Position numbers and translations under genes: made by a program. Source: Desulfococcus multivorans (GTDB lineage: Bacteria > Desulfobacterota > Desulfobacteria > Desulfobacterales > Desulfococcaceae). Taken from it: 64,000 nt of DNA. Of the stretch, positions 48,479-63,391 are shown piece after piece. Under the pieces are notes generated by a model. The model was not told the origin of the DNA, did no database searches, and was given only the letters and a program-made list of their open reading frames with translations. Each line of letters starts with the position of its first letter. Within the stretch, counting starts at the first letter, position 1. The DNA is taken from assembly GCF_001854245.1 (NCBI RefSeq), contig NZ_CP015381.1:3693001-3757000 (forward strand), given 5' to 3'.

Positions 48479-48742
48479 ATGATCACATTGAGACTCGATC
48501 CGGACCTGGAAAACGATGTTCGTGTCGCTGCCAGAAATCTGGGTCTGACAAAATCCGAATTGATTCGCAAAAGTATAATTGAATATATCGGAAAGTTGGA
48601 AAGCCTCGATGCCTGGGAATCGGGCAAGGATTTGTTTGGCAGATATTCAAGCGGCCGGGAAAAATCTGTCTGTCGATCGAAAAGCCATTTTAAAAGAGAA
48701 GATTCGGGGAAAAAGAAAATGAGGCTGAAGACTGAAGGCTGA
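48479..48742 (+). pseudogene. Ribbon-helix-helix antitoxin with a frameshifted C-terminus
   Basis: The N-terminal 60 residues are an intact RHH antitoxin (MITLRLDPDLENDVRVAARN, then DLFGRYSSGRE). From the A5 run at 48660-48664 the frame changes. With four A residues the sequence would continue NLSVDRKAILKEKIRGKRK and stop at 48720-48722, which is the usual basic toxin-binding tail of these antitoxins. As written, the frame instead runs into an R1 repeat and stops at 48742. Either a one-base insertion (real or assembly error) inactivated the tail, or slippage on the A-run restores it. GGAGGTGACGAC precedes the ATG. Confidence 0.7.
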
Positions 48743-48804
48743 AGGGGCATAAACGTTCCGTCCATCGCAGACCACCCCTTTAGCCTTCAGCCTTCAGTCT
48801 TCAG
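48721..48804. repeat. R1 inverted-repeat element between antitoxin and toxin
   Basis: Arms GGCTGAAGACTGAAGGCTG (48723 onward) and their complement CCTTCAGCCTTCAGTCTTCAG (48784-48804) flank a 35-bp core, ATAAACGTTCCGTCC then CACCCC, homologous to the core at about 4525-4560. It begins at the ancestral antitoxin stop and ends eight bases before the toxin ATG. Confidence 0.75.
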
Positions 48805-49915: not shown

Positions 49916-50226
49916 AGGGTGATTAGGGTTTTAGGGTTTTAAGGTTTTAAGGTTTTAAGGTTTTATGGTTTTATGGTTTTATGTGGTTACCGGCACACGC
50001 TTATAGTCTTCAGCCTTCAGTCTTCAGCCTTCCTTCAGCCTTTCCCCCCACCAGCCCCTGAAAATCGAAGTCAACACCGAAAGATGTCCTGAAACGCAAC
50101 ACCAACATCCCACAGGCACAAGATCATCCTCTCCCCCCAACCACCCTAAAACTCTACCACCTTAATCACCCTAAAACCCTAAAACTCTAACACCCTAAAA
50201 CCCTAATCACCCTAAAACCCTTCTTC
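49916..50226. repeat. Two 8-bp-period arrays flanking R1 heptamers
   Basis: 49916-49985 holds TTAGGG/TTAAGG/TTATGG-type octamers; 50008-50040 holds R1 heptamers; 50142-50226 holds AAAACTCT, ACCACCTT, AATCACCC, TAAAACCC and similar octamers. They fill most of the gap between 49908 and the EPS promoter. There is no gene. Confidence 0.7.
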
Positions 50227-50537: not shown

Positions 50538-51872
50538 ATGAAAAAACAATGTTTCAAGGTTGCAGTGGTTCTCGGTTTTCTCTGTGTGCTTCCAGTGACG
50601 GTCGTTGCGGAAAATCAGGTGGTGATCGAACCGGAAAACCGGGTGGTGATCGAACCCCTGATCTACGCGGACGAAATCGACGTCGCGAACGCCAACCTCA
50701 ACCTGACGGCCAAGGCGACCAATCGGCTGGAGCCGACCCTCTCCTTCGCCTATCGGACGGACAGCAACTTCTACCGGGTGGACGACGATTTCGAGAAGCT
50801 TCGGGTGGACACCTATCTGGTGCAGCCGGGTCTCCGCTTCGGCTATCGGACCGGGAAAACCCTGGTGGACCTGGGCTATTCCCTCAACATCTACTCCTAT
50901 GACGACCGGGACGACCGGCCGGCCGGACATCGGAACGCCGACGACCTCGATTACACCGGGCACACCCTCCGGCTGAACGCCGAAACCCGGCCCACGGCCA
51001 AGATCAATCTCGGCCTCAAGGAATATTTCGTCCGCACCCGGGACCAGTCCGAGGCCGACCACACCACCGGACTCGTCGGGATCCAGGAGAAATACAACTA
51101 CAACCAGATAGAGCCCTGGCTCGCCTACCGTTTCAGCGAACGCTTTTCATCCCGCCTCGCCTACCGGCACACCGCCGTCAATTACGATAAGGTCAACCCC
51201 GAAGACGCAACGGAAAACCGGGGCCTTTTCGATTTCCGCTACCACCTGTCGCCCCGGGACTCCATCGCCGTCGATTACAGCATCTGGAATCGGGATCACG
51301 ACGAAGGCATTGCCGACTACACCTCCAACGTGATCGGGCTGGTGTACCGGCGCAACGCCAAGTTCCTCTACGGTGAGCTGGGCGTCGGCTACCATCATCG
51401 GGACTTCGAGGAGAGCGGCCGCGACAGCGAAAGCACCCCGGCCTTCCGCCTGGCCGTCACGGCCCAGAGCTCGGGCCTGGACGAATCCGGCCGCCCCAAA
51501 ACCTACGCCACCCTGGCCTTGAACAAGGATTTCAACAGCTCGGGTACGTCCAGCAACTTCCTCGAAACGCGGGAGGTCTCCCTCCGGGCCGGCCACACGT
51601 TCATGGACCGGATCCTCCTGGACATGGAAGGCTATTACCGCATGAACGAGTATGAGGACGCTGCCGGCCTCACCCCCGACGGATCCGTCGAGGATCGGGA
51701 CGACGACCGGATGGGCGTAGTGGGCAGCCTGGGATACCGCCTCGGCCGCTGGTTCGTGCTGAGCGTCCGGGGCGGATACGAGAGCCGCGATTCCAACCTG
51801 GCCGCCTACGACTATGACAACACCTATGTCATGGCCCGTCTGGATTCGTCCTATGATTTCAACCTGAAGTAA
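50538..51872 (+). CDS. Outer-membrane beta-barrel protein of the EPS cluster
   Basis: 444 residues with a signal peptide (MKKQCFKVAVVLGFLCVLPV, cleavage near VVAEN). Many alternating hydrophobic/polar strands ending with aromatic residues follow, as in SFAYRTDSNFYRV, LVDLGYSLNIYSY, FLYGELGVGYHHRDF and the terminal ARLDSSYDFNLK. This is the pattern of the barrel proteins found at the head of exopolysaccharide clusters, thought to assist export across the outer membrane. NQVVIEPE and NRVVIEP are a small duplication near the N-terminus. AGAGGA lies before the ATG at 50538. Confidence 0.78.
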   Translation: MKKQCFKVAVVLGFLCVLPVTVVAENQVVIEPENRVVIEPLIYADEIDVANANLNLTAKATNRLEPTLSFAYRTDSNFYRVDDDFEKLRVDTYLVQPGLRFGYRTGKTLVDLGYSLNIYSYDDRDDRPAGHRNADDLDYTGHTLRLNAETRPTAKINLGLKEYFVRTRDQSEADHTTGLVGIQEKYNYNQIEPWLAYRFSERFSSRLAYRHTAVNYDKVNPEDATENRGLFDFRYHLSPRDSIAVDYSIWNRDHDEGIADYTSNVIGLVYRRNAKFLYGELGVGYHHRDFEESGRDSESTPAFRLAVTAQSSGLDESGRPKTYATLALNKDFNSSGTSSNFLETREVSLRAGHTFMDRILLDMEGYYRMNEYEDAAGLTPDGSVEDRDDDRMGVVGSLGYRLGRWFVLSVRGGYESRDSNLAAYDYDNTYVMARLDSSYDFNLK

Positions 51873-51884
51873 GCTTCCCAAACC

Positions 51885-51931
51885 GCAAGCCGCCGACGAC
51901 AACGGGCCCGGCGCCCGCGTTTGCGGCTTGC
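51885..51931. other. Intergenic hairpin within the EPS operon
   Basis: GCAAGCCGC (51885-51893) pairs with GCGGCTTGC (51923-51931), with a GC-rich inner segment (GGGCCCGGCGCCC). It ends 14 bases before the start of the Wza-like gene and may stabilise or process the mRNA. No U-run, so it is not a terminator. Confidence 0.5.
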
Positions 51932-51945
51932 CTTGTGTGACGATC

Positions 51946-52854
51946 ATGCCATACCTGAAAAATCGAATCTTCGGAAATATTGTGTTCCTCTGGCTTGCCG
52001 CCGCCCTGCTTTTCCCTTCGGGAGGCCTCTGCCTCGCCCGGGAGGAGGGCTATCGCATCGGCGCCAGGGATGTTCTGGCCCTCACCATTTATGCCGGCGG
52101 CGAGGAGCAGCAGTCGGTCCAGCTGACGGTGAGCCCCCAGGGCACCATCAACGTCCCCTTCATCGGGCCGGTCAAGGCGGCGGGCCTCACCGTCAGCCAA
52201 CTCCGGGAACAGATCGTGGCGCCCCTGGCCCAGGATTATTTCGTCGATCCCGAGGTCAACCTCTATATCAAGGAATACCAGAGCCTTCAGTATTACATCA
52301 CCGGCGCCGTCACCACCCCCGGCCTCTACACCACCGATTCCCGGCAAACCCTGTTGACCCTCATCGCCAAGGCCGGCGGCGTCATGAACGACCGCGGGAA
52401 CGTGGCCTACATCATGCGGGACTCCACCGGAAAGCTGCGGGAGGGGGAGACGCCGGAGGAGCTGATATCCAAGAACAAGAGCCAGAAGGCGGATCTGGAT
52501 CGACTCCTCGACAAGGGCGATATGGGCCAGAACGTGCCCCTCCATTCCGGGGACGTCGTCTACATCCCCCTCAAGCGGGACCTGGACGTGGCCCAGTCGA
52601 GCATCTATATGGAAGGCGAAATCAACCGCCCGGGCATCTATCCCTATCAGCAGGGGCTCACCGCCCTGAACGCCTGCCTCATGGCCGGCGGATTCAAGAC
52701 CTATGCCGCCCCCAGCCGGACCCGTATCATCCGGGAGGTGGGGAACCGGAAAGAGGTGATCCGGATCGATCTGAACGCCGTCAAGGCCGGCAAGATCGCC
52801 GACATTCCCCTGAAGCCCGGGGATCTGATCAATGTTCCCGAAAGCTGGTTTTAA
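51946..52854 (+). CDS. Polysaccharide export protein (Wza-like)
   Basis: 303 residues with a signal peptide (LKNRIFGNIVFLWLAAALLF, cleavage near CLARE). It contains a Poly_export domain (GYRIGARDVLALTIYAGGEE through INVPFIGPVKAAGLT) and two SLBB beta-grasp domains (YITGAVTTPGLYTT and YMEGEINRPGIYPY). It forms the outer-membrane or periplasmic conduit for polymer. A Cys in the signal region (GLCLA) may be a lipobox. The C-terminal helix of E. coli Wza is absent, so the barrel protein upstream may supply the outer-membrane pore. Confidence 0.9.
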   Translation: MPYLKNRIFGNIVFLWLAAALLFPSGGLCLAREEGYRIGARDVLALTIYAGGEEQQSVQLTVSPQGTINVPFIGPVKAAGLTVSQLREQIVAPLAQDYFVDPEVNLYIKEYQSLQYYITGAVTTPGLYTTDSRQTLLTLIAKAGGVMNDRGNVAYIMRDSTGKLREGETPEELISKNKSQKADLDRLLDKGDMGQNVPLHSGDVVYIPLKRDLDVAQSSIYMEGEINRPGIYPYQQGLTALNACLMAGGFKTYAAPSRTRIIREVGNRKEVIRIDLNAVKAGKIADIPLKPGDLINVPESWF

Positions 52855-52901
52855 CCCGGCATGACCCTTCATGCCGCCCCCCCGCGAGGCAAAGACGCAC
52901 C

Positions 52902-54386
52902 ATGACTGAAAGCCCCCATTTGTCCCAGGAAACCGAAGAGACCGTCGACCTGACGGAGTACCTGAACGTCCTCAAGAAGTACCGCGGCCTGATCCTCCTT
53001 GTGATGATCCTGGTCGCGGCCGCGACCACCCTTTTCACGCTCCGGATGCGCCCGGTCTACGAGGCGGCCGCCACCATCGTCATCGACAACGAAAAGACGC
53101 CCCTGCCCTTTGGCAACGACATGGGCGGTTACGGGAGCTATATCTCCCAGGAGGTCATGTTCAAGACCCACAAGCAGCTTCTCACCTCTCGGCCGGTCAT
53201 CGAGAAGGTGATCCAGGATCTCCGGCTCGACCAGGTTCAGGAGGACCTCGAGATCGGCTCCATCAGGGCACTGTTATCCCGCTACAAAAAAAACCTGATG
53301 CTGCTCTTCCGGGAGGAGCGGATCCCCACCCCCGAGGAGACCCGTCTGGCCCTCATCAAAACGGTCCTCGACAAGATCACCGTGACCGAGATCCGGGACA
53401 CCCGCCTCCTCCGAATCGGAGTGCGGGACTACGATCCCGAAGCAGCGGCGCGGATGGCCAACGCCCTGGCCCAGGCCTACATCACCTTCAACCTGGCCAA
53501 CCGCCTCGAATACTCCCAGAACACCATGGCGTGGATGACGGAACAGCTTTACGACGTCCAGAAGAAGCTGGAGGACGCCGAGGCCGAGTTCCTGGCCTAC
53601 AAACAGAAGACCAGGCTCTTCTCCGTGGAAGGACGCCAGGGCATGATCACCAACAAGATGAACGAGTTCAACGACGCCTATCTCCAGACGCGCAACCAGC
53701 GGCTGGAGCTGGAAGCCAAGCTGGGCGAGCTGCGGCGCATCGGCGGCACCTCCAACCGGCGGAACATCGTCCACATCCGCTCCCTCATTGAAAACGCGGT
53801 GATCGACAACCTCTACAACCAGCTCATCGAGGCCGAGGTGGCCTATTCCCGGGCCGCCAAGATCTACAAGGGCAAGCATCCCAAGCTGACCCAGATCCAG
53901 ACCCAGATCGACAACACCCGGGCCAAGCTCAACGGCGAGATCCAGAAGGAGCTGCAGAGCATGAAGGCCCAGCAGGCCGTGCTGGCCGCCCGGGAGGAGG
54001 TCATCCAGAAGACCATCGGGGACTTCGAGAGCGAGGCCATGGAAACCAACAAGAAGGAGCTGGAGTACACCATGCTGGAACGGAGCGTCGAAACCCAGCA
54101 GCAGATGCACGACATCCTCCTGGCCAAGCTGAAGGAGACCAACATCAGCAGCAACGTGGACGTCTCCAACATCCGGATCACCGAGTCGGCCGTGGCCGTC
54201 AACAGCCCGGTCAAGCCCCAAAAGGCCCGGAACATCCTCCTCGGCGTCATCGTCGGCCTGATGGCGGGTATCGGTCTCGCCTTCCTCCGGGAATACCTCG
54301 ACCAGTCCCTGAGAACGGAGGAGGACGTCCAACGCTACCTCGGCCTCCCCGTCCTCTCCATCGTCCCCCTCGCGGGAAAGAAGTAA
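52902..54386 (+). CDS. Chain-length determinant (Wzz/GNVR) protein
   Basis: The 494-residue inner-membrane polysaccharide co-polymerase has an N-terminal cytoplasmic segment with LTEYLNVLKKYRGLILLVMI as the first membrane helix and a long periplasmic coiled coil (about residues 190-420). The second helix, PQKARNILLGVIVGLMAGIG, follows. The end, EYLDQSLRTEEDVQRYLGLP, is the classical partner site for a BY-kinase. The kinase domain is encoded separately downstream. There is a 47-bp gap to the Wza-like gene. Confidence 0.92.
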   Translation: MTESPHLSQETEETVDLTEYLNVLKKYRGLILLVMILVAAATTLFTLRMRPVYEAAATIVIDNEKTPLPFGNDMGGYGSYISQEVMFKTHKQLLTSRPVIEKVIQDLRLDQVQEDLEIGSIRALLSRYKKNLMLLFREERIPTPEETRLALIKTVLDKITVTEIRDTRLLRIGVRDYDPEAAARMANALAQAYITFNLANRLEYSQNTMAWMTEQLYDVQKKLEDAEAEFLAYKQKTRLFSVEGRQGMITNKMNEFNDAYLQTRNQRLELEAKLGELRRIGGTSNRRNIVHIRSLIENAVIDNLYNQLIEAEVAYSRAAKIYKGKHPKLTQIQTQIDNTRAKLNGEIQKELQSMKAQQAVLAAREEVIQKTIGDFESEAMETNKKELEYTMLERSVETQQQMHDILLAKLKETNISSNVDVSNIRITESAVAVNSPVKPQKARNILLGVIVGLMAGIGLAFLREYLDQSLRTEEDVQRYLGLPVLSIVPLAGKK

Positions 54387-54407: not shown

Positions 54408-54410
54408 CGA

Positions 54411-54545
54411 GGCTGAAGACTGAAGACTGAAGGCTGAAGGAAAAGCGGGCCCGAAAACCGGCCCCACAATCACATAAAACCCTAAAACCTTAAAACCCTA
54501 AAACCCTAAAACCTTAAAACCCTAAAACCCTAAAACCTTAACCAC
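54411..54545. repeat. R1 heptamers plus CCCTAAAA octamer array inside the EPS operon
   Basis: CTGAAGA/CTGAAGG units at 54411-54441, then about nine CCCTAAAA/CCTTAAAA octamers to 54545. It separates the Wzz-like gene from its kinase, which are expected to be cotranscribed. Confidence 0.8.
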
Positions 54546-54567: not shown

Positions 54568-55821
54568 ATGCCCAAAAAAAATAACGCCAAAGACAAAAAA
54601 GAGAGATCCTACGGCCGCGTCCTTCTCAACGGCGACAACCAGAAATCCCGGTTTGCCGAGGCCTATCGGACCCTGCGGACGAACCTCCATTTCTCCTTCA
54701 TGGACCGGAACTTCAAGGCCCTGGTGGTGACCAGCGCCGGCGAGTCGGAGGGCAAGACCGTCACCGCCTACAACCTGGGGCATGCCCTGTCCCAGACCGG
54801 AAAATCGGTCCTCCTGGTGGACGCGGACCTCCGGAAGCCCCTGTTGAGCCGAATCACCCCCCTCAACGGTGACGGGCCCGCGGCCAATCCCTCGGGATTC
54901 ACCGGGCTTCTGGCCAACGCCTTCAACACACCGGTGGCCGAAGGCCGGCTGGAGGAGATCGGCATCCACGATCTCTTCAAGATCCTGGCGGTCCAACGCC
55001 GGACCGGCGTCCTCCGCGCGGAGACCCCGGAGAATACTGTCGAGGTCATCTTCTCCCAGGGCTTGCCTTCAGCCGTCACCTGGGAAAACCGCCCGGAGGA
55101 GAAGAAGCTGGCGAACGTTCTGGTCAAAAACGGCGTGCTCTCGGAGGAAAACGCCCGGATCGCTTTCCGCCAAAAGGCGGACACGGGACATAAGCTGGGG
55201 TTCATCCTCTCCCGCATGGGATTGTGCCGGGAGACCGATCTCAAGGGCACCCTCTTCATCCACCTCACCGAATCCCTGAGGGTGCTGATGGGGATGCAAT
55301 CCGGGGCCTTCACCTTCACCGACCGCCCCGCCGGCTTTTTTCAGCGGGCCCAGTTCGATATCGTCGACCTGAAGGAGGTGCTGGACCAGATGAAAAACGA
55401 CGACGAACAATACCCGTACCTCAACGGCCTCATCGACGCGAACATCCAGGCCACGCACCAACCGGGTCTTTTTCTGCTGTCGTCGGGCGTCATTCCGCCC
55501 AACCCCTCCGAGCTCCTCTCGTCGCCCCAGGTCGATTTCCTCATGACGCTCCTGACCCGAAAATTCGACACGATCATCATCGACACCCCCCCCATACTGC
55601 CGGCCACCGACGCCCTCCTCCTCGCTCCCCGGACCGACGGGGTCGTCCTGATCGTCAAGGCCGGGCACATGCGGCGCAACCTGGTTCAGAAGTGCGTGGA
55701 CCAGATCCGCCTCAGCCAGGCCAACCTCGTGGGCGTGGTGCTCAACCAGGTGGACGTCCGCAAGGAGGGCTACTACAACTACTACAACAAATACTACACC
55801 GGCTACTACGGAAAATCGTGA
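54568..55821 (+). CDS. BY-kinase with an inserted DUF4388/PATAN-like domain
   Basis: 417 residues. The kinase parts are complete: EAYRTLRTNLHF, Walker A SAGESEGKT (Lys 63), Walker A' LLVDADLRKPLL, Walker B FDTIIIDTPPILPATDA (about residue 333), and the C-terminal tyrosine cluster GYYNYYNKYYTGYYGKS (eight Tyr) for autophosphorylation. Between Walker A' and B, about residues 130-255, lies an inserted domain (IGIHDLFKILAVQRRTGVLR, then the GxV-type repeats and LFIHLTESLRVLMGMQSGAF). It matches the PATAN/DUF4388 pattern known from response-regulator-linked proteins. This placement is, to my knowledge, unusual. Partner of the Wzz-like protein upstream; overlaps the TPR gene by four bases. Confidence 0.85.
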   Translation: MPKKNNAKDKKERSYGRVLLNGDNQKSRFAEAYRTLRTNLHFSFMDRNFKALVVTSAGESEGKTVTAYNLGHALSQTGKSVLLVDADLRKPLLSRITPLNGDGPAANPSGFTGLLANAFNTPVAEGRLEEIGIHDLFKILAVQRRTGVLRAETPENTVEVIFSQGLPSAVTWENRPEEKKLANVLVKNGVLSEENARIAFRQKADTGHKLGFILSRMGLCRETDLKGTLFIHLTESLRVLMGMQSGAFTFTDRPAGFFQRAQFDIVDLKEVLDQMKNDDEQYPYLNGLIDANIQATHQPGLFLLSSGVIPPNPSELLSSPQVDFLMTLLTRKFDTIIIDTPPILPATDALLLAPRTDGVVLIVKAGHMRRNLVQKCVDQIRLSQANLVGVVLNQVDVRKEGYYNYYNKYYTGYYGKS

Positions 55822-57128
55822 ACTCAGCGGCGACACCCCCCCAACAGGGCACCCGGCTTGCCGCGGTCGCTCTCGTCATCTGCCTGGCCGTCGGCGGAAC
55901 GGCTGTTCTGGCCGCCCGCCTGACAGCCCAGTTGCACCGGCTCCGGGGGGAGCGCTTCCTGCTTTCCGAGGCCCACCCCGAGGCGGCCGCCGCCTTTGCC
56001 GCCGCGCTCGGACGCCTTTCCAGGGACGCCGATCTCCACCGGCTCCTGGGCAGGGCCCGGTTCCGGCAGGCCACCGCACCGCCGGAGGACCCCCAGGCCT
56101 CACCCGACCCCGGCCCCCTGCTGATCAAGGCCAGGGACGCCTTCCTCGAAGCGGCCCGGCTCAACCCCCTCGACGCCCAGAGCTTCTTCGGGGCCGCCGA
56201 ATGCGAAGCCCTGCTGGCCCAGGCCTTCCGCGCCGAACACCCCTACGCCCCCGACATCCCATACGACCCCCGCCCCTATTTCGAGGCGGCGGTCCGGCTT
56301 CGGCCCAACGGCATCACCTATGCCTACGCCCTGATCCGATACCTGGCCTGGCTCCCGGACCCCGAGGCCCTGAGCAGGGCAGTCCGAGACCTGGCCGCGG
56401 TCTATCCCCCCATCCACGCGCGCCTGAAAAAAGAGGCCTTCTGGTCGCAGTCTCTCCGGGAGGCGTGTTTACAGGGGCTCACGACGGCCGCGAAAAACCG
56501 GGTCCTGCCCCGGGAAACCCACGCGGCCCTGTCGACGTTCATGGCCGAAGAAGGGCGCTGGTCCGAAGCCGTGACCCACTACCAAGCAGCCATGGCCGTA
56601 GGACCGTCCCAGAACACCTCCACCCACCAGTATCATCTGGGATCCCTCCATCTCGGCGCCGGGGAGCCCGGAGCAGCCCGGGACGCCTTTCTGGAGGGGC
56701 TCCGCCAGAGCCGGGACCGGGAGCGCGATCTGAACCGGATCCTCGGGTATTACCGCCGGGAAAAGAATCCGGCCGGGTTCGTCGCGTTCTTTCGCACGGC
56801 CGCGGCCCAAACCGCCCTTCCCCCGGAGGCCGACATGATCCTCGCCCAGGCCCTGATTTCCACGGAGCGATATGACGCGGCCCGGGAGGTCCTGTCGACC
56901 CTGATCCGGCAGAAGCCCATGGCCCGGGCCTATTACTGGCTGGCCAGGACGGCCGAGGCCCAACAGGACTGGGACGCCATGGAACTGGCGGCCCAGAAAG
57001 CCACCATCCTTGAGCCCGAAAACAGCCGCTACCACGCCCTCTTCGCCCAGGTGCTGACCCGCCTCAAAAAATACGACCGCGCCAAACAGGCCCGCGCCCT
57101 GGCCAAGCACTACAGCCACCGCCCCTGA
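55818..57128 (+). CDS. Membrane-anchored TPR protein of the EPS operon
   Basis: 436 residues from the GTG at 55818, overlapping the kinase stop (GTGA). One N-terminal transmembrane helix (LAAVALVICLAVGGTAVLA) is followed by at least eight TPR-like helix pairs across the rest, for example YHLGSLHLGAGEPGAARDAF and AYYWLARTAEAQQDWDAMEL. The domain should face the periplasm. TPR proteins in polymer export systems (PelB, AlgK, PgaA-type) organise the secretion complex. No known family assignment beyond TPR. Confidence 0.78.
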   Translation: MNSAATPPQQGTRLAAVALVICLAVGGTAVLAARLTAQLHRLRGERFLLSEAHPEAAAAFAAALGRLSRDADLHRLLGRARFRQATAPPEDPQASPDPGPLLIKARDAFLEAARLNPLDAQSFFGAAECEALLAQAFRAEHPYAPDIPYDPRPYFEAAVRLRPNGITYAYALIRYLAWLPDPEALSRAVRDLAAVYPPIHARLKKEAFWSQSLREACLQGLTTAAKNRVLPRETHAALSTFMAEEGRWSEAVTHYQAAMAVGPSQNTSTHQYHLGSLHLGAGEPGAARDAFLEGLRQSRDRERDLNRILGYYRREKNPAGFVAFFRTAAAQTALPPEADMILAQALISTERYDAAREVLSTLIRQKPMARAYYWLARTAEAQQDWDAMELAAQKATILEPENSRYHALFAQVLTRLKKYDRAKQARALAKHYSHRP

Positions 57129-57175
57129 CACGGAGGACGGAGGTCGGAGGGCAGAGGTCGGAGGTCCCAACATTC

Positions 57176-57275
57176 AAAATTCAACATTCAAAATTCAACA
57201 TTCAAAATTCAACATTCTTACCCCCTGCCCGACAACCAGCCCCTTCAGCCTTCAGCCTTCAGTCTTCAGCCTTTA
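57176..57275. repeat. AACATTCAAAATTC tandem array followed by R1 heptamers
   Basis: Three and a half copies of the 14-bp unit AACATTCAAAATTC (57176-57219), then TTCAGCC/TTCAGTC heptamers (57243-57275). A mirrored copy of the 14-bp family lies at about 45013. Confidence 0.75.
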
Positions 57276-57337
57276 ATCTAAAAAATCCTCGAAATCCCCT
57301 CCTCTTTCAGTGTATGAACAACGAGAGAGGATCGCCC

Positions 57338-59380
57338 ATGAAAACCTATCGGATTTCCGACTTGCTGGATCTGTCCGCCGTTCAAAAGATGGCGGAAGCC
57401 CATTATCGCGCTACAGGCATGCCGGTCGGCATTGTGGATGCCCTTGACGACGCGATTCTGGTCAGTACGGCCTGGCAGGATATCTGCAGCAAATTTCACC
57501 GGGTCCACCCGGAGGCGCTGAAAAAATGTCAGGCCAGCGAAAAATACATCAAAGAACATCTTGTCGAAAGCGGGGCCTGTCGGTATAAATGCCAAAACGG
57601 CCTCTGGAATATCGCTTTACCGATCTCAGTTGCGGAACGGCATCTGGCCACGCTGTTTCTGGGACAATTTTTTTACGAAGGGGAAATCGCCGAGCGGGAG
57701 ATCTTTATCCGCCAGGCTCGGGAATTCGGGTTCGACCTCGACGACTATCTTGCGGCCCTCGATCGGGTCCGGATTCTCACGAACCAGGAGGTCGACAATA
57801 TCATCGAATACAACAAGGGGCTGGTGGCCTTTATCACGGACATCGCGGAGCGGTCGCTCGCGAAGCTGGAAGCGGACGAAGCTGTTTTAAAACAGCAGTA
57901 TTTTCTTCAGAAGGCACAGGAGATCGGACAGATCGCCACCTTTGAGCTGGACCTGAAAACCTGTGAAATGACCTGGACGGACGAGCTCTACAGGATTTTC
58001 GGGCTTCCCGTGGACATGCCGATCACCTATGAGAAGATTTTAAACTGCGTCCATCCCGACGACCGGAAATATGTCGAAATCTGTCCGGATGCGCCGTTCG
58101 CGGCGGAAATTCTGAATATTGAATATCGGATAGTGGTCGACGGCAGTTTAAAATGGATCAAAAGAAAAGCCGAATTCAAGCTGGATGAAAAAGATGAGAT
58201 CACGGGCGTGATCGGCGTGGTTCAGGACATAACGGAGCGCAAGCTGACCGAGGAGGCCCTGGCGGAGAGCGGCAAGCGGCTGCGCCTGTCACTGGCCGGT
58301 TCCGGCGCGAGCTTCTGGGAATGGCGGCCTGAAAACAACTATATCTATTTTGACGATTACTGGTGGAAAATGATGGGGTATGCTCCCGGCAATCGGATTT
58401 TTAATTTCGAGGTCTTGAAAAAAAGCGTTCATCCCGACAGCAAACCGCTTTTTAAAAAAACGCTCCAGAAGTATATCGAAGGCAGCATCCCGCGATATGA
58501 AATGGAATACCGGATCAAAACCCCGGCCGGTGAATGGAAATGGATCTGGGTTGCCGGTGAATGCATGGAATGGGATAAAAACAAAAGGCCGCTTCGGTTT
58601 ATCGGCATCCAAAGGGACATCACGCCAAAAAAGCAGGCCGAGGAAGAAATCCGCAGCCTGAATGAAACACTCGAAGAGCGCGTCGCCAGACGTACGGCGG
58701 AGCTCGAGGAACGCCGGCGCCAGATCCAGCGGCTTGCGCTGGAACTGAGCGAGGTTGAAAATCGGGAACGGCAGCACATCGCAACCATTCTGCACGACGA
58801 TTTCCAGCAGGAGTTGGCCTACATCAAGATTGAAGTCAGCCTCATGGCCAGAGACAACGCCGACAGAAAAGTGGGCCAAAAGCTGAGCTACCTGGAAAGC
58901 CTCATCGGGGAATGCATTGAAAAGTCGCGCAATCTCTCCTATGAACTCAACCCGCCGGGCCTGAGGCGCGGGGGATTGCCGATGGCCCTGGAAATTCTCG
59001 GCCAGGATATGGAGGATAATTACGGCCTCAAGGTCAGGGTCCGAACCCGGGACGGCCTCGAACCCATTTCACTGACCCATGCCTCTGTCCTGCACCGCTC
59101 CGCCAGAGAGCTGCTTTTCAATGTGGTCAAACATGCCGGGACAACGTCGGCGTTCATGGATGTCGGATGCCGGAACGGAATGATTTATATCCGGGTAAAG
59201 GATTTCGGCAGGGGATTTGACTATGATGCCGTCAGATCCAGAGAGGGGCGGGGCGTGGGTTTCGGTCTGTATCAACTTACGGAGCGCATCACTTTTCTGG
59301 GAGGAACCGTGAATATCCGGACCGGTCCGGGAAAAGGGTGCTGCGTTGTGCTGAAGGTACCCAGAGATGGAAATGTTTAA
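57338..59380 (+). CDS. PocR-PAS-PAS histidine kinase (NarL-type)
   Basis: 680 residues, no membrane span. Residues about 5-165 are a PocR sensory domain (SAVQKMAEAHYRATGMPVGI, CRYKCQNGLWNIALPI), known for ligand or metal sensing. Two PAS domains lie at about 205-300 and 315-430. A coiled coil follows, then a HisKA_3 dimerisation domain with phospho-accepting His 486 (IATILHDDFQQEL) and an HATPase domain (FNVVKHAGTTSAFM, FGLYQLTERITFLGG). Start chosen at 57338 after GAGAGGA; an ATG at 57314 has no site. No response regulator is adjacent. The gene is AT-richer than its neighbours and overlaps the next by 14 bp. Confidence 0.88.
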   Translation: MKTYRISDLLDLSAVQKMAEAHYRATGMPVGIVDALDDAILVSTAWQDICSKFHRVHPEALKKCQASEKYIKEHLVESGACRYKCQNGLWNIALPISVAERHLATLFLGQFFYEGEIAEREIFIRQAREFGFDLDDYLAALDRVRILTNQEVDNIIEYNKGLVAFITDIAERSLAKLEADEAVLKQQYFLQKAQEIGQIATFELDLKTCEMTWTDELYRIFGLPVDMPITYEKILNCVHPDDRKYVEICPDAPFAAEILNIEYRIVVDGSLKWIKRKAEFKLDEKDEITGVIGVVQDITERKLTEEALAESGKRLRLSLAGSGASFWEWRPENNYIYFDDYWWKMMGYAPGNRIFNFEVLKKSVHPDSKPLFKKTLQKYIEGSIPRYEMEYRIKTPAGEWKWIWVAGECMEWDKNKRPLRFIGIQRDITPKKQAEEEIRSLNETLEERVARRTAELEERRRQIQRLALELSEVENRERQHIATILHDDFQQELAYIKIEVSLMARDNADRKVGQKLSYLESLIGECIEKSRNLSYELNPPGLRRGGLPMALEILGQDMEDNYGLKVRVRTRDGLEPISLTHASVLHRSARELLFNVVKHAGTTSAFMDVGCRNGMIYIRVKDFGRGFDYDAVRSREGRGVGFGLYQLTERITFLGGTVNIRTGPGKGCCVVLKVPRDGNV

Positions 59381-60731
59381 ATTCGACAGGCCGGTGATCC
59401 GCGCCCTCCTCTTCGTCCTGCTCGTCTTCACCCCCCTGGCCCGCGCCGGCGTGAAGCCCTGGGCCGTGACGGTGATGGAGATGATCGTTCTCGTTGCCGC
59501 GGCGCTGTGGGTGTCGGGCCGGATCCTGGATCCGATCCTGAATCCAATCATGGATCCAATCATAGATCCAATCATAGATCCAATCATAGATCCGGCCGGG
59601 GGCCGATTCAAAACCCCCCTGGACCGCCCCCTGGCCGCGGCCGTCGCCCTGGCCTTCATCTCCGCCCTCTTCTCGGAGAACCCCATTGCCGGTCTCTGGG
59701 CCGTGGCCGAGTTCATCACCTATATCGCCGTCTTCCACCTGACGGTCCACACCCTCCGCACCCGGGCCCAGGTCAAGGCCCTCGTGGGGCTCCTTGCGGG
59801 CATGGGCGCCCTGCTCTGTGTGTTCGGCCTGTTCAAACACTGGGGAATGAACCCCTTTCCCTGGTGGGACTACGCCGATATCGGCCGATACAACGTGCGG
59901 CTCTCCGCCACCTTCGGCAGCCCGGACCATTTCGCGGGCTACCTGGAGATGGTCGCGGCCCTGACCCTGGGGTATCTTTTCACCGGGGTCGGCATGGAGA
60001 GGCGGATGCTCCTGACGTCGCTCCTGGTGCTCTTCCTCGCGGCCCTCATCCTCACCCTCTCCCGGGGCGGGTGGATCGGGCTGGGCGCCGGTCTCTTTTT
60101 CATGATGGGAGTCCTGCTCACCCAGGAGCGGTTCGGAAAATACCGGTGGAGCGCCGCCGTAGGCCTGGGCGTCCTGGTCCTCATGCTCATCCTCCTCTCC
60201 TCCACCCCGGCGGTGGAGCGGGTGCTGACCCTCCGGGACGGCGAGGCGGCCCTCGGGGGCCGGCTGACGGCCTGGCAGGGCGTTCTGGCCATGATCGCCC
60301 AGAATCCGCTTCTGGGCACCGGCCCCGGCACCTTTGCCGACGCCTTCACCCAGTACCAGCCGCCGGGGCTCAGTCGTCAGTTCACCATGGCCCACAACGA
60401 CTACCTCCACTTCATCGCCGAGACGGGCCTGCCCATGGCCCTGGTCATGGCGTGGATCCTGGTCGCGGTCTACCGGACCGGCCTCGAAAAGATGCGCCAC
60501 CCCAGCCGGCTGGTCCGGGGGACCACCCTGGGGGCCCTGGCCGGCATCACCGCCATGGCGGTCCACAGCGCCGGGGACTTCAACCTCCACATCCCGGCCA
60601 ACGCCCTCCTCTTCACGGTCCTGGGGGCCGTGGTCTGCTCCCGCACCCCCTCGGCCCTGCCCGAAAGCCCGGGCTTCAGGAGCGGGGATTCGGTGTCGTC
60701 TTCCACGCCCATCCCCCTGAATCGCACATGA
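59367..60731 (+). CDS. O-antigen ligase/polymerase-like membrane protein
   Basis: 454 residues, about 11-12 transmembrane helices, a Wzy_C domain (LTLSRGGWIGLGAGLFF, ENPLLGTGPGTF-like IAQNPLLGTGPGTF, MAHNDYLHFIAETG). It polymerises or ligates lipid-linked sugar chains at the periplasmic face. The large loop and HNDYL motif fit the family. A 12-bp in-frame repeat inserts DPII units after the second helix (residues about 59-75). It starts inside the kinase gene. Confidence 0.88.
   Translation: MEMFKFDRPVIRALLFVLLVFTPLARAGVKPWAVTVMEMIVLVAAALWVSGRILDPILNPIMDPIIDPIIDPIIDPAGGRFKTPLDRPLAAAVALAFISALFSENPIAGLWAVAEFITYIAVFHLTVHTLRTRAQVKALVGLLAGMGALLCVFGLFKHWGMNPFPWWDYADIGRYNVRLSATFGSPDHFAGYLEMVAALTLGYLFTGVGMERRMLLTSLLVLFLAALILTLSRGGWIGLGAGLFFMMGVLLTQERFGKYRWSAAVGLGVLVLMLILLSSTPAVERVLTLRDGEAALGGRLTAWQGVLAMIAQNPLLGTGPGTFADAFTQYQPPGLSRQFTMAHNDYLHFIAETGLPMALVMAWILVAVYRTGLEKMRHPSRLVRGTTLGALAGITAMAVHSAGDFNLHIPANALLFTVLGAVVCSRTPSALPESPGFRSGDSVSSSTPIPLNRT
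59541..59588. repeat. In-frame 12-bp tandem repeat in the ligase gene
   Basis: Four copies of GATCCAATCATA (first copy AATCCAATCATG), plus a degenerate copy upstream. It encodes (N/D)PI(I/M) repeats. Copy number changes would add or remove four residues without frameshift. Confidence 0.85.
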
Positions 60732-62301: not shown

Positions 62302-62422
62302 CAACTTCCGGCATTCACATGCCGGTGCCGGAGGACGGAAGCCAGCGGTCGGAACGTCCGATGCCATAACACCATAACACCCTAAAGCCCTAACACCCTA
62401 AAACCATAATCACTTAACCACT
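62302..62422. repeat. R2 copy followed by a mixed octamer array
   Basis: CAACTTCCGGC...GCCGGTGCCGGAGG (62302-62338), then ACCATAAC, ACCATAAC, ACCCTAAA, GCCCTAAC, ACCCTAAA, ACCATAAT, CACTTAAC in strict 8-bp register (about 62360-62422). This one array joins all the unit types that form separate arrays elsewhere. Confidence 0.8.
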
Positions 62423-62494: not shown

Positions 62495-63352
62495 ATGAGA
62501 TGGAAATCCGTTCTTTTGGCATTATGCTGCCTGGCGCTGGTTGTCTCGGAGGTGTTCGCGGAGACGCCTTCGGCCGGGACGATGGAGTTGAATGTCCTGA
62601 AAACCATCCAGTTGGAGGCGACGCCCGTTGACGTGGCCATCACCCCTGACGGGCGGCGGCTGTTCGTGCTGACCGACCAGGGGGAGATTCACGTCTATGC
62701 GTCGGCCACGGAAATCGAGAGCAGGATCCCCGTGGGGAAACACATCAACCGGATGAAGGCGGGCCCCGGGGGATCCACCCTCATCCTCGGCAGCAGCGAC
62801 AGAAAGACGGTGGAGATCGTCGGCGTCGACTTCATCCGGAACATCGACATTTCCGGGGCGCCGTTCAAGGGGCCTGAGAATGCCCCGGTGGTGATCACTG
62901 TTTTCGACGAGTTCCAGTGCCCCCACTGCGCCGCCCTGGTACCGGTGCTCGACCAGGTGGTCGAAAAAAACCCCAAGACCGTCAAAGTCGCCTTCAAGCA
63001 CTTCCCCATCACCGGCCACAAATTCGCCCGAAAAGCGGCTATTGCCGCAATTGCCGCGGGCGAACAGGGTAAATTCTGGGAGCTCCACGACCTGCTGTTC
63101 AAGAATTACAACCGGCTCGACGACAAACTCATCGATGAGCTCGCCCTCGGACTCGACCTGGACCGGGAAGCCTATGAGAAGAAGCTGAAGGACCCCGCCC
63201 TCGAGCAGCGGATCGACCAGGACATCCGGGACGGGCAAAAGGCCGGGGTCAGGGGAACGCCCACCATCTTCGTCAACGGCCGCCTCCTGAGGGACCGCCG
63301 CATCGAGGGATTCCAGGCCGCCATCGACAAGGAATTGAAAAGCAGGGAATAA
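62495..63352 (+). CDS. DsbA-family thiol oxidoreductase with an N-terminal beta-propeller-like segment
   Basis: 285 residues with a signal peptide (cleavage near VFAET). Residues about 30-110 read like one or two YVTN/NHL beta-propeller blades (VDVAITPDGRRLFVLTDQGE). The DsbA-like thioredoxin domain with an alpha-helical insertion follows: DISGAPFKGPENAPVVITVF, active site QCPHCAALV, and cis-proline site VRGTPTIFVNGR. It is a periplasmic thiol:disulfide enzyme, possibly fed by DsbD. GGGGGTGAACG precedes the ATG. Confidence 0.85.
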   Translation: MRWKSVLLALCCLALVVSEVFAETPSAGTMELNVLKTIQLEATPVDVAITPDGRRLFVLTDQGEIHVYASATEIESRIPVGKHINRMKAGPGGSTLILGSSDRKTVEIVGVDFIRNIDISGAPFKGPENAPVVITVFDEFQCPHCAALVPVLDQVVEKNPKTVKVAFKHFPITGHKFARKAAIAAIAAGEQGKFWELHDLLFKNYNRLDDKLIDELALGLDLDREAYEKKLKDPALEQRIDQDIRDGQKAGVRGTPTIFVNGRLLRDRRIEGFQAAIDKELKSRE

Positions 63353-63391
63353 AGGCTGAAGACTGAAGACTAAAGGCTGAAGGCTGAAGGA
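63353..63391. repeat. R1 heptamer array
   Basis: GGCTGAA, GACTGAA, GACTAAA, GGCTGAA, GGCTGAA directly after the DsbA-like gene. Confidence 0.65.

Follow-up and report, generated by a model that had tools for sequence, protein, structure and literature searches.

The tyrosine kinase of an exopolysaccharide (EPS) locus in Desulfococcus multivorans is, by domain homology, interrupted by a PATAN domain, which is itself interrupted by an MshEN-like block, i.e., the order of nesting is kinase, PATAN, MshEN-like, two levels deep within a P-loop kinase. The gene lies in a stretch of 64,000 nucleotides, which is called the window in what follows. The PATAN/MshEN insertion is a variation on a known type of BY-kinase, and its arrangement has been kept in dozens of bacteria, both sulfate reducers and related ones. 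The interpretation that we prefer, and to which we give somewhat better than even credence, is that the protein is a PCP-2b kinase, predicted to be active, with a built-in regulatory module that descends from a c-di-GMP sensor and whose ligand site has been eroded in this lineage. The MshEN-type core and its erosion are the most informative feature of the protein, and they are absent from an earlier, sequence-only reading of the same DNA.

The kinase and its locus

The catalytic motifs can be read directly from the sequence of the window kinase. ExxRxxR is E31-R34-R37, Walker A is SAGESEGKT (residues 56-64), Walker A' is LLVDADLR (82-89), Walker B is IIIDTPP (336-342), and the C-terminal tail, YYNYYNKYYTGYY, has 8 Tyr among its final 20 residues. 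The NCBIfam BY-kinase model TIGR01007 matches in two separate stretches, with a total of 156.9 bits against a cut-off of 108.05, and the sequence-only reading was therefore right in regarding P-loop, Walker A', Walker B and the eight-tyrosine tail as intact. When compared with PDB sequences, the protein is aligned with the solved CapB, VpsO, Wzc and BceF kinases on both flanks of the insert. In the main clade of relatives, none of the 37 members has lost Walker A, Walker B or the Tyr tail, while strict Walker A' occurs in 29/37, the remainder having mostly ECDLR. In an AlphaFold model of the full-length protein, based on an alignment of four rows, the kinase part is fair and resembles CapB/Wzc chains (structure match E about 1e-12). 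By these motifs and matches, the open reading frame is a stand-alone BY-kinase of PCP-2b type.

Features of the kinase gene and its neighbourhood, with positions in the window
Feature	Position	Strand	Basis
Outer-membrane beta-barrel (BBP2_2)	50541..51872	+	domain match; conserved neighbour
Wza-like polysaccharide export protein (Poly_export + SLBB)	51928..52854	+	domain match; conserved neighbour
Wzz/GNVR chain-length protein without kinase domain (PCP-2b partner)	52899..54386	+	Pfam Wzz E 3.9e-12, GNVR 2.4e-16; adjoins kinase in most relatives
BY-kinase with nested PATAN/MshEN-like insert	54568..55821	+	ORF; 417 aa (stop included); TIGR01007 and DUF4388 matches; 50 co-linear relatives
Kinase N-terminal half (ExxRxxR, Walker A, Walker A', GLTGLL/GFTGLL helix)	54568..54918	+	sequence; PDB BY-kinase alignment; motifs conserved
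Inserted segment, about residues 118-286 (about 169 aa)	54919..55425	+	A'-B spacing
DUF4388/PATAN domain, residues 125-262	54940..55353	+	Pfam PF14332 E 8.9e-15
MshEN-like motif I, KLANVLVKNGVLSEENARIAFRQK, residues 180-203	55105..55176	+	NF053729 below cut-off; profile against PilF/PilB/MshE; ungapped in 50 relatives
MshEN-like motif II, KLGFILSRMGLCRETDLKGTLFIH, residues 209-232	55192..55263	+	as motif I; 5-residue spacer from motif I
Kinase C-terminal half (PPNPSELL, Walker B, Tyr-rich tail with 8 Tyr)	55426..55818	+	TIGR01007; PDB BY-kinase alignment; motif conservation
TPR protein	55818..57128	+	start overlaps kinase stop; conserved neighbour
Wzy_C O-antigen ligase/polymerase-type membrane protein	59367..60731	+	domain match; conserved neighbour

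By its gene content, the locus is a PCP-2b-type, Wzx/Wzy-type exopolysaccharide locus. The pairing that characterizes PCP-2b, a separate Wzz/GNVR membrane protein directly upstream of a stand-alone kinase, is present here and conserved in relatives, and the Wzz/GNVR protein has a cytoplasmic C-terminus that extends about 32 residues past its last hydrophobic helix. The set of barrel, Wza, Wzz, kinase, TPR and Wzy genes recurs at most main-clade relatives whose contig is long enough. A PocR-PAS-PAS histidine kinase gene (57314-59380), situated between the TPR and Wzy genes, did not turn up among the matches when other loci were compared.

Several repeats occur in and around the locus. Telomere-like octamer arrays (CCCTAAAA/CCTTAAAA) occupy intergenic positions at 54475-54541, right upstream of the kinase gene, and at 50143-50221, 49923-49981 and 62364-62409. 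The sequence CCCTAAAACC has 13 copies in the window against 0.13 expected, and for an 18-mer of the octamer array the genome-wide count is 16, with 14 forward and 2 reverse copies, against 0 for a control pattern. Intergenic regions with octamer arrays also contain 7-mer spacer repeats (AGGCTGA/AGACTGA, or CCTTCAG on the other strand), which are found at 54410-54440, 48722-48804, 50005-50032, 57242-57273 and 63350-63390. A perfect 14-base tandem repeat, CAACATTCAAAATT, is present in 3.6 copies at 57168-57217 between the TPR and histidine kinase genes, and an in-frame 12/24-base tandem repeat at 59523-59593 encodes a DPIIDPIIDPIIDP stretch of the Wzy_C protein, probably within an extramembrane loop.

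The insert and its MshEN-like core

The distance from the start of Walker A' to the start of Walker B is 254 residues in the window kinase, compared with 75-83 in ordinary BY-kinases and mostly 246-257 in the fused relatives. From this follows that the insert comprises about 169 residues. According to the alignment, it takes the place of a short turn, a few residues long, that lies between the GLTGLL/GFTGLL helix and the strand that precedes PPNPSELL, and this turn is a site where length varies also among ordinary BY-kinases. The Pfam model PF14332 (DUF4388) matches 138 of the inserted residues with 55.2 bits against a gathering cut-off of 25. The claim of a PATAN/DUF4388 domain within the BY-kinase of an EPS gene cluster, next to a Wzz-like protein, thus agrees with the DUF4388 match and with the Wzz/GNVR gene directly upstream. 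Its placement between Walker A' and Walker B also stands, while the length of about 125 residues that had been assigned to it was too small, and the assertion that BY-kinases normally have a short loop between these motifs is contradicted by the 75-83 residues found there.

When the insert-bearing relatives are aligned, the insert residues G126, L128, D135, L136, L149, F162, G165, L185, L214, G246 and F250 are invariant, and the insert is conserved among the stand-alone relatives of the first sample, which have whole-protein identities of 34-51%.

The PATAN domain encloses a tandem of 53 residues, organized as 24+5+24, that is homologous to the MshEN c-di-GMP receptor. MshEN consists of two 24-residue motifs with exactly 5 residues between them (PMC5013675). 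The NCBIfam model NF053729, which describes an MshE-related c-di-GMP motif and has a curated cut-off of 38 bits, matches residues 181-228 of the window protein with 29.2-31.3 bits, i.e., below the cut-off, which is exceeded by nine relatives tested (39-52 bits). A profile of 15 relatives matches solved MshEN/GSPII domains at equal positions (PilF 1.5e-20, PilB 1e-8, MshE 6e-8), and the 24+5+24 register is ungapped in all 50 proteins aligned. Predicted helices at 176-187, 193-201, 206-216 and 229-240 would fit the four-helix MshEN_N fold, but their pLDDT is only about 36-63; the insert as a whole is poorly modelled, with an unreliable pLDDT of about 30-60 in the full-length model and of 35 when modelled alone.

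The nesting is also visible in another PATAN protein of the same genome (L001), which in alignment has the PATAN shell but lacks exactly the MshEN block. The PATAN domain has been described, in the title of Makarova et al. 2006 (ref. 53 in PMC7690835), as having an alpha-helical insertion, and by the alignment it is the MshEN-like block that constitutes this insertion in the window protein. Free-standing PATAN proteins of the same phylum bear this PATAN+MshEN unit too, in some cases with 12/12 canonical c-di-GMP contacts. Since the unit exists free-standing in related genomes, the module was probably captured ready-made. L001 (G000:C1:2439676-2439975) is the only other DUF4388 protein of its genome, and domains of cyclic-nucleotide-binding type apparently follow it, as judged by eye. 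Some free-standing proteins (L021, L024, L022, L023 and L027-L030) combine an N-terminal Lar-type CPFCG zinc ribbon with PATAN and have a strong MshE-type motif (56 bits in L021).

To assess the ligand site, consider positions 1, 2, 3, 17, 21 and 24 of both motifs, i.e., 12 contacts in total, where the MshEN consensus is (R/K/L)LG...L...L..Q in each motif. The window copy keeps 7/12, and neither of its motifs fits the consensus. The median number of contacts is 7 (3-10) in the main clade, 10 (5-12) in other fused proteins and 9 in free-standing PATANs. In motif I of the window copy, Gly3 and Leu17 are both replaced by Ala, and Gln24 is lost from both motifs (K and H). The position that corresponds to Leu17 is Leu25 of MshE, which stacks on guanine, and changing just one of the conserved hydrophobic contacts lowers the affinity more than 10-fold (PMC5013675). 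The same replacements recur in the short proteins: in motif I, 21/37 have Ala for Gly3 and 30/37 have Ala for Leu17, and in motif II, 18/37 have His for Gln24. A pattern as consistent as this suggests that the insert has changed its role rather than decayed at random.

Several known systems share parts of this architecture. Kinases of CapB/Wzc type (PCP-2b/PCP-2a; 3bfv, 3la6, 7nhr) have the same Walker A, A' and B, ExxRxxR, Tyr-rich tail and adjacent Wzz-like partner, but the insert of about 170 residues is absent from the matched solved and the sampled ordinary BY-kinases. MshEN/GSPII domains (MshE, PilB, PilF) have the tandem helical 24-residue motifs with a 5-residue spacer and profile homology, but these are N-terminal in a traffic ATPase, whereas those of the window protein lie inside PATAN in a tyrosine kinase and have degraded contacts. 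PATAN proteins (PatA, PixE and the free-standing ones of this order) share Pfam DUF4388 with its helical insertion, while the window PATAN lies inside a P-loop kinase without receiver-domain fusion. EpsG (TIGR03029, Methylobacillus-type EPS) is likewise the BY-kinase of a PCP-2b pair, and the first positions of its model align weakly with the helical tandem of the window protein (E 0.022). A Methylobacillus EPS protein is named among MshEN proteins (PMC5013675), and we infer that this protein is EpsG; there, the MshEN-like block would be N-terminal, while in the window kinase it is inside the catalytic domain, within PATAN. The pseudokinases EcpK and HfsB are stand-alone partners of a Wzz-like protein with BY-kinase fold and resemble a long branch of relatives without A' Arg and Tyr tail, but EcpK lacks the Walker motifs and the Tyr tail (PMC12004946), all of which are present in the window protein.

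Distribution and descent of the fusion

A profile spanning kinase, insert and kinase was used to search 291 genomes of the order at E <= 1e-25 and a class sample of 389 genomes at E <= 1e-40. The fusion was found in 40/291 genomes of the order (about 14%), in one of them split across two contigs, and in 62/389 genomes of the class sample. Full-length fusions (E 1e-106 to 3e-56) are also present in eight genomes of the phylum sample that do not belong to the order, and the remaining phylum matches concern the PATAN part only, in proteins of about 300-480 aa. The fusion was not found in one genome of the same genus, nor in any of 199 genomes from the phylum of a Parablautia genome (0/199), where matches were to the Walker-B region only; a scan of genome contigs with a single protein as query gave only a Parablautia kinase, which lacks the insert. 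Searches of plasmid and viral contigs gave insert-less BY-kinases and no fusion, and a viral scan with the free PATAN proteins gave Lar zinc-ribbon matches only. The profile search that the sequence-only reading had proposed as its own test thus confirms the insert as DUF4388 and finds the arrangement to be common in the order. A description of a DUF4388/MshEN-BY-kinase fusion was not found in the literature searched, which omits most subscription journals, and to that extent the statement that no such system is described holds.

Of the 50 proteins studied, 37 have short open frames of 403-564 aa and the other 13 have long ones of 862-962 aa, and the long proteins tested are fused to Wzz/GNVR, as is Wzc. 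In all 50, the insert has one position, one register and the same length, and is co-linear. A chimera that arose in sequencing or assembly, or a gene fusion by frameshift, has the unusual architecture and nothing else to recommend it, and its probability is negligible: the gene is a single open frame in a complete genome. An assembly chimera is rejected, since the same fusion occurs in more than 40 other, independent genomes.

In a tree of the kinase part, the main clade contains the window copy, grouped with genomes of the same family (G002, G004 and G005), and is separate from L104, L106-L109 and eight long proteins; the ordinary kinases form one or two groups. The deep branching is weak, and the tree is compatible with one origin of the insert as well as with two. 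The eight long proteins form one clade, have lost the strict DxDxR of Walker A', have 0-4 Tyr in their last 40 residues and keep 9-10/12 contacts of the c-di-GMP site, while L104, L106 and L107 keep both kinase motifs and a near-canonical site. An inverse trend between the integrity of the kinase and that of the c-di-GMP site is visible in these sequences and is suggestive, but it may reflect a single evolutionary event, since the eight long proteins are one clade. Insert-bearing Wzc-like proteins in which both the A' Arg and the Tyr tail are gone (L097-L100, L131, L132 and L137) are candidate BY pseudokinases with a near-canonical site. The window genome has a second BY-kinase-like match outside the window, with an in-frame TGA (G000:C1:3643214-3643822).

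Possible functions of the insert

If the window copy were still a c-di-GMP receptor, the ligand would bind to the two degenerate MshEN motifs and gate tail phosphorylation and polymer length. The 24+5+24 register is intact, motif II retains K1, L2, G3, L17 and L21, and Lys at position 1 does not preclude very tight binding, as PilF GSPII-B shows (PMC11731258). The genome has 9 GGDEF domains, from which follows that the host probably makes c-di-GMP. On the other hand, the lost contacts of motif I, the missing Gln24 of both motifs and a score of 31 bits against the curated cut-off of 38 weigh against this, and in PilF GSPII-A a similar combination, with the two Gln replaced by His and Arg and Gly3 by Ala, goes with no binding and required reversion for rescue (PMC12002112). 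With this precedent, the lost contacts lead us to expect poor binding or none, and the window copy probably no longer binds c-di-GMP tightly. The loss is less than certain, since Bd1509 and Bd1596 have less conserved MshEN sites and were yet recovered in a c-di-GMP binding screen (PMC5013675), but a receptor function in this copy is, on balance, unlikely.

An adaptor function, where the insert would tether the EPS kinase to a polar or a pilus/gliding machine in the manner of cyanobacterial PATAN-REC and PilB1, draws on the well conserved PATAN layer that surrounds the insert and on the ties of PATAN response regulators to type IV pili, with PixE thought to act on PilB1 (PMC7690835). The gene context gives it no support: no pilus or gliding gene lies beside the kinase, EPS genes adjoin it in most of the 50 loci, and the neighbourhood in the window is purely exopolysaccharide, which gives no support to the link to gliding or pilus systems suggested by the sequence-only reading either. 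The PATAN partners considered here are, in addition, cyanobacterial, and we hold such tethering to be quite improbable. A tolerated, functionally near-neutral passenger would be at home in a surface turn that varies in length among ordinary BY-kinases, between flanks with intact kinase motifs. It would, however, be expected to shrink or vanish, while length and register are kept in 50 proteins from many families with invariant insert residues, and we give the passenger explanation very little credence.

Returning to the preferred interpretation, an active kinase with an eroded sensor module, the kinase would dock on its neighbour, the Wzz-like co-polymerase, at the cytoplasmic tail of the latter, as do CapB and Wzc. 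By analogy with the trans-phosphorylation of Wzc/CapB tails (PMC8285477; PMC12004946), it would form a ring, an octamer with the Wzz partner, where every subunit phosphorylates the Tyr-rich tail of the next, and by homology, cycles of phosphorylation and ring disassembly would set polymerization and export. By sequence, a surface turn of the catalytic part holds the regulatory module, a PATAN domain that encloses a helical bundle of two MshEN-type motifs. The module would have arrived pre-assembled and would originally have been a c-di-GMP sensor that fed into the kinase; this ancestral sensing is suggested by near-canonical relatives, on a tree with weak deep branches. In the window clade, the ligand contacts have been replaced consistently. 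The window copy has probably lost tight c-di-GMP binding, and its module may now serve a partner protein or another ligand as a fixed platform, of docking or allosteric kind, that sets where or when the kinase ring forms. The best reading of the insert is that it would provide a second regulatory input to the polymer-length machinery.

A wider and more tentative proposal, which we regard as possible but doubtful, is that c-di-GMP directly gates a branch of capsule/EPS kinases by way of an MshEN receptor that is nested in PATAN within the catalytic domain. L104, L106 and L107 would then sense c-di-GMP, the eight Wzc-like proteins with a nearly canonical site but neither A' Arg nor Tyr tail would have exchanged phosphorylation for c-di-GMP as the switch, and the window clade would be the reverse case, with phosphorylation kept and the site eroded.

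Biofilm polysaccharides are under c-di-GMP control in many bacteria, mostly by PilZ-type or MshEN-type control of the synthase (e.g., NfrB), while a direct link from c-di-GMP to a BY-kinase/Wzz polymer-length switch was not described in the literature searched. The family consists of testable proteins with natural variants that range from a canonical to an eroded site within one fixed architecture, and it presents a two-level nesting of domains in a P-loop kinase that is conserved over an order of importance to marine sulfur and carbon cycling.
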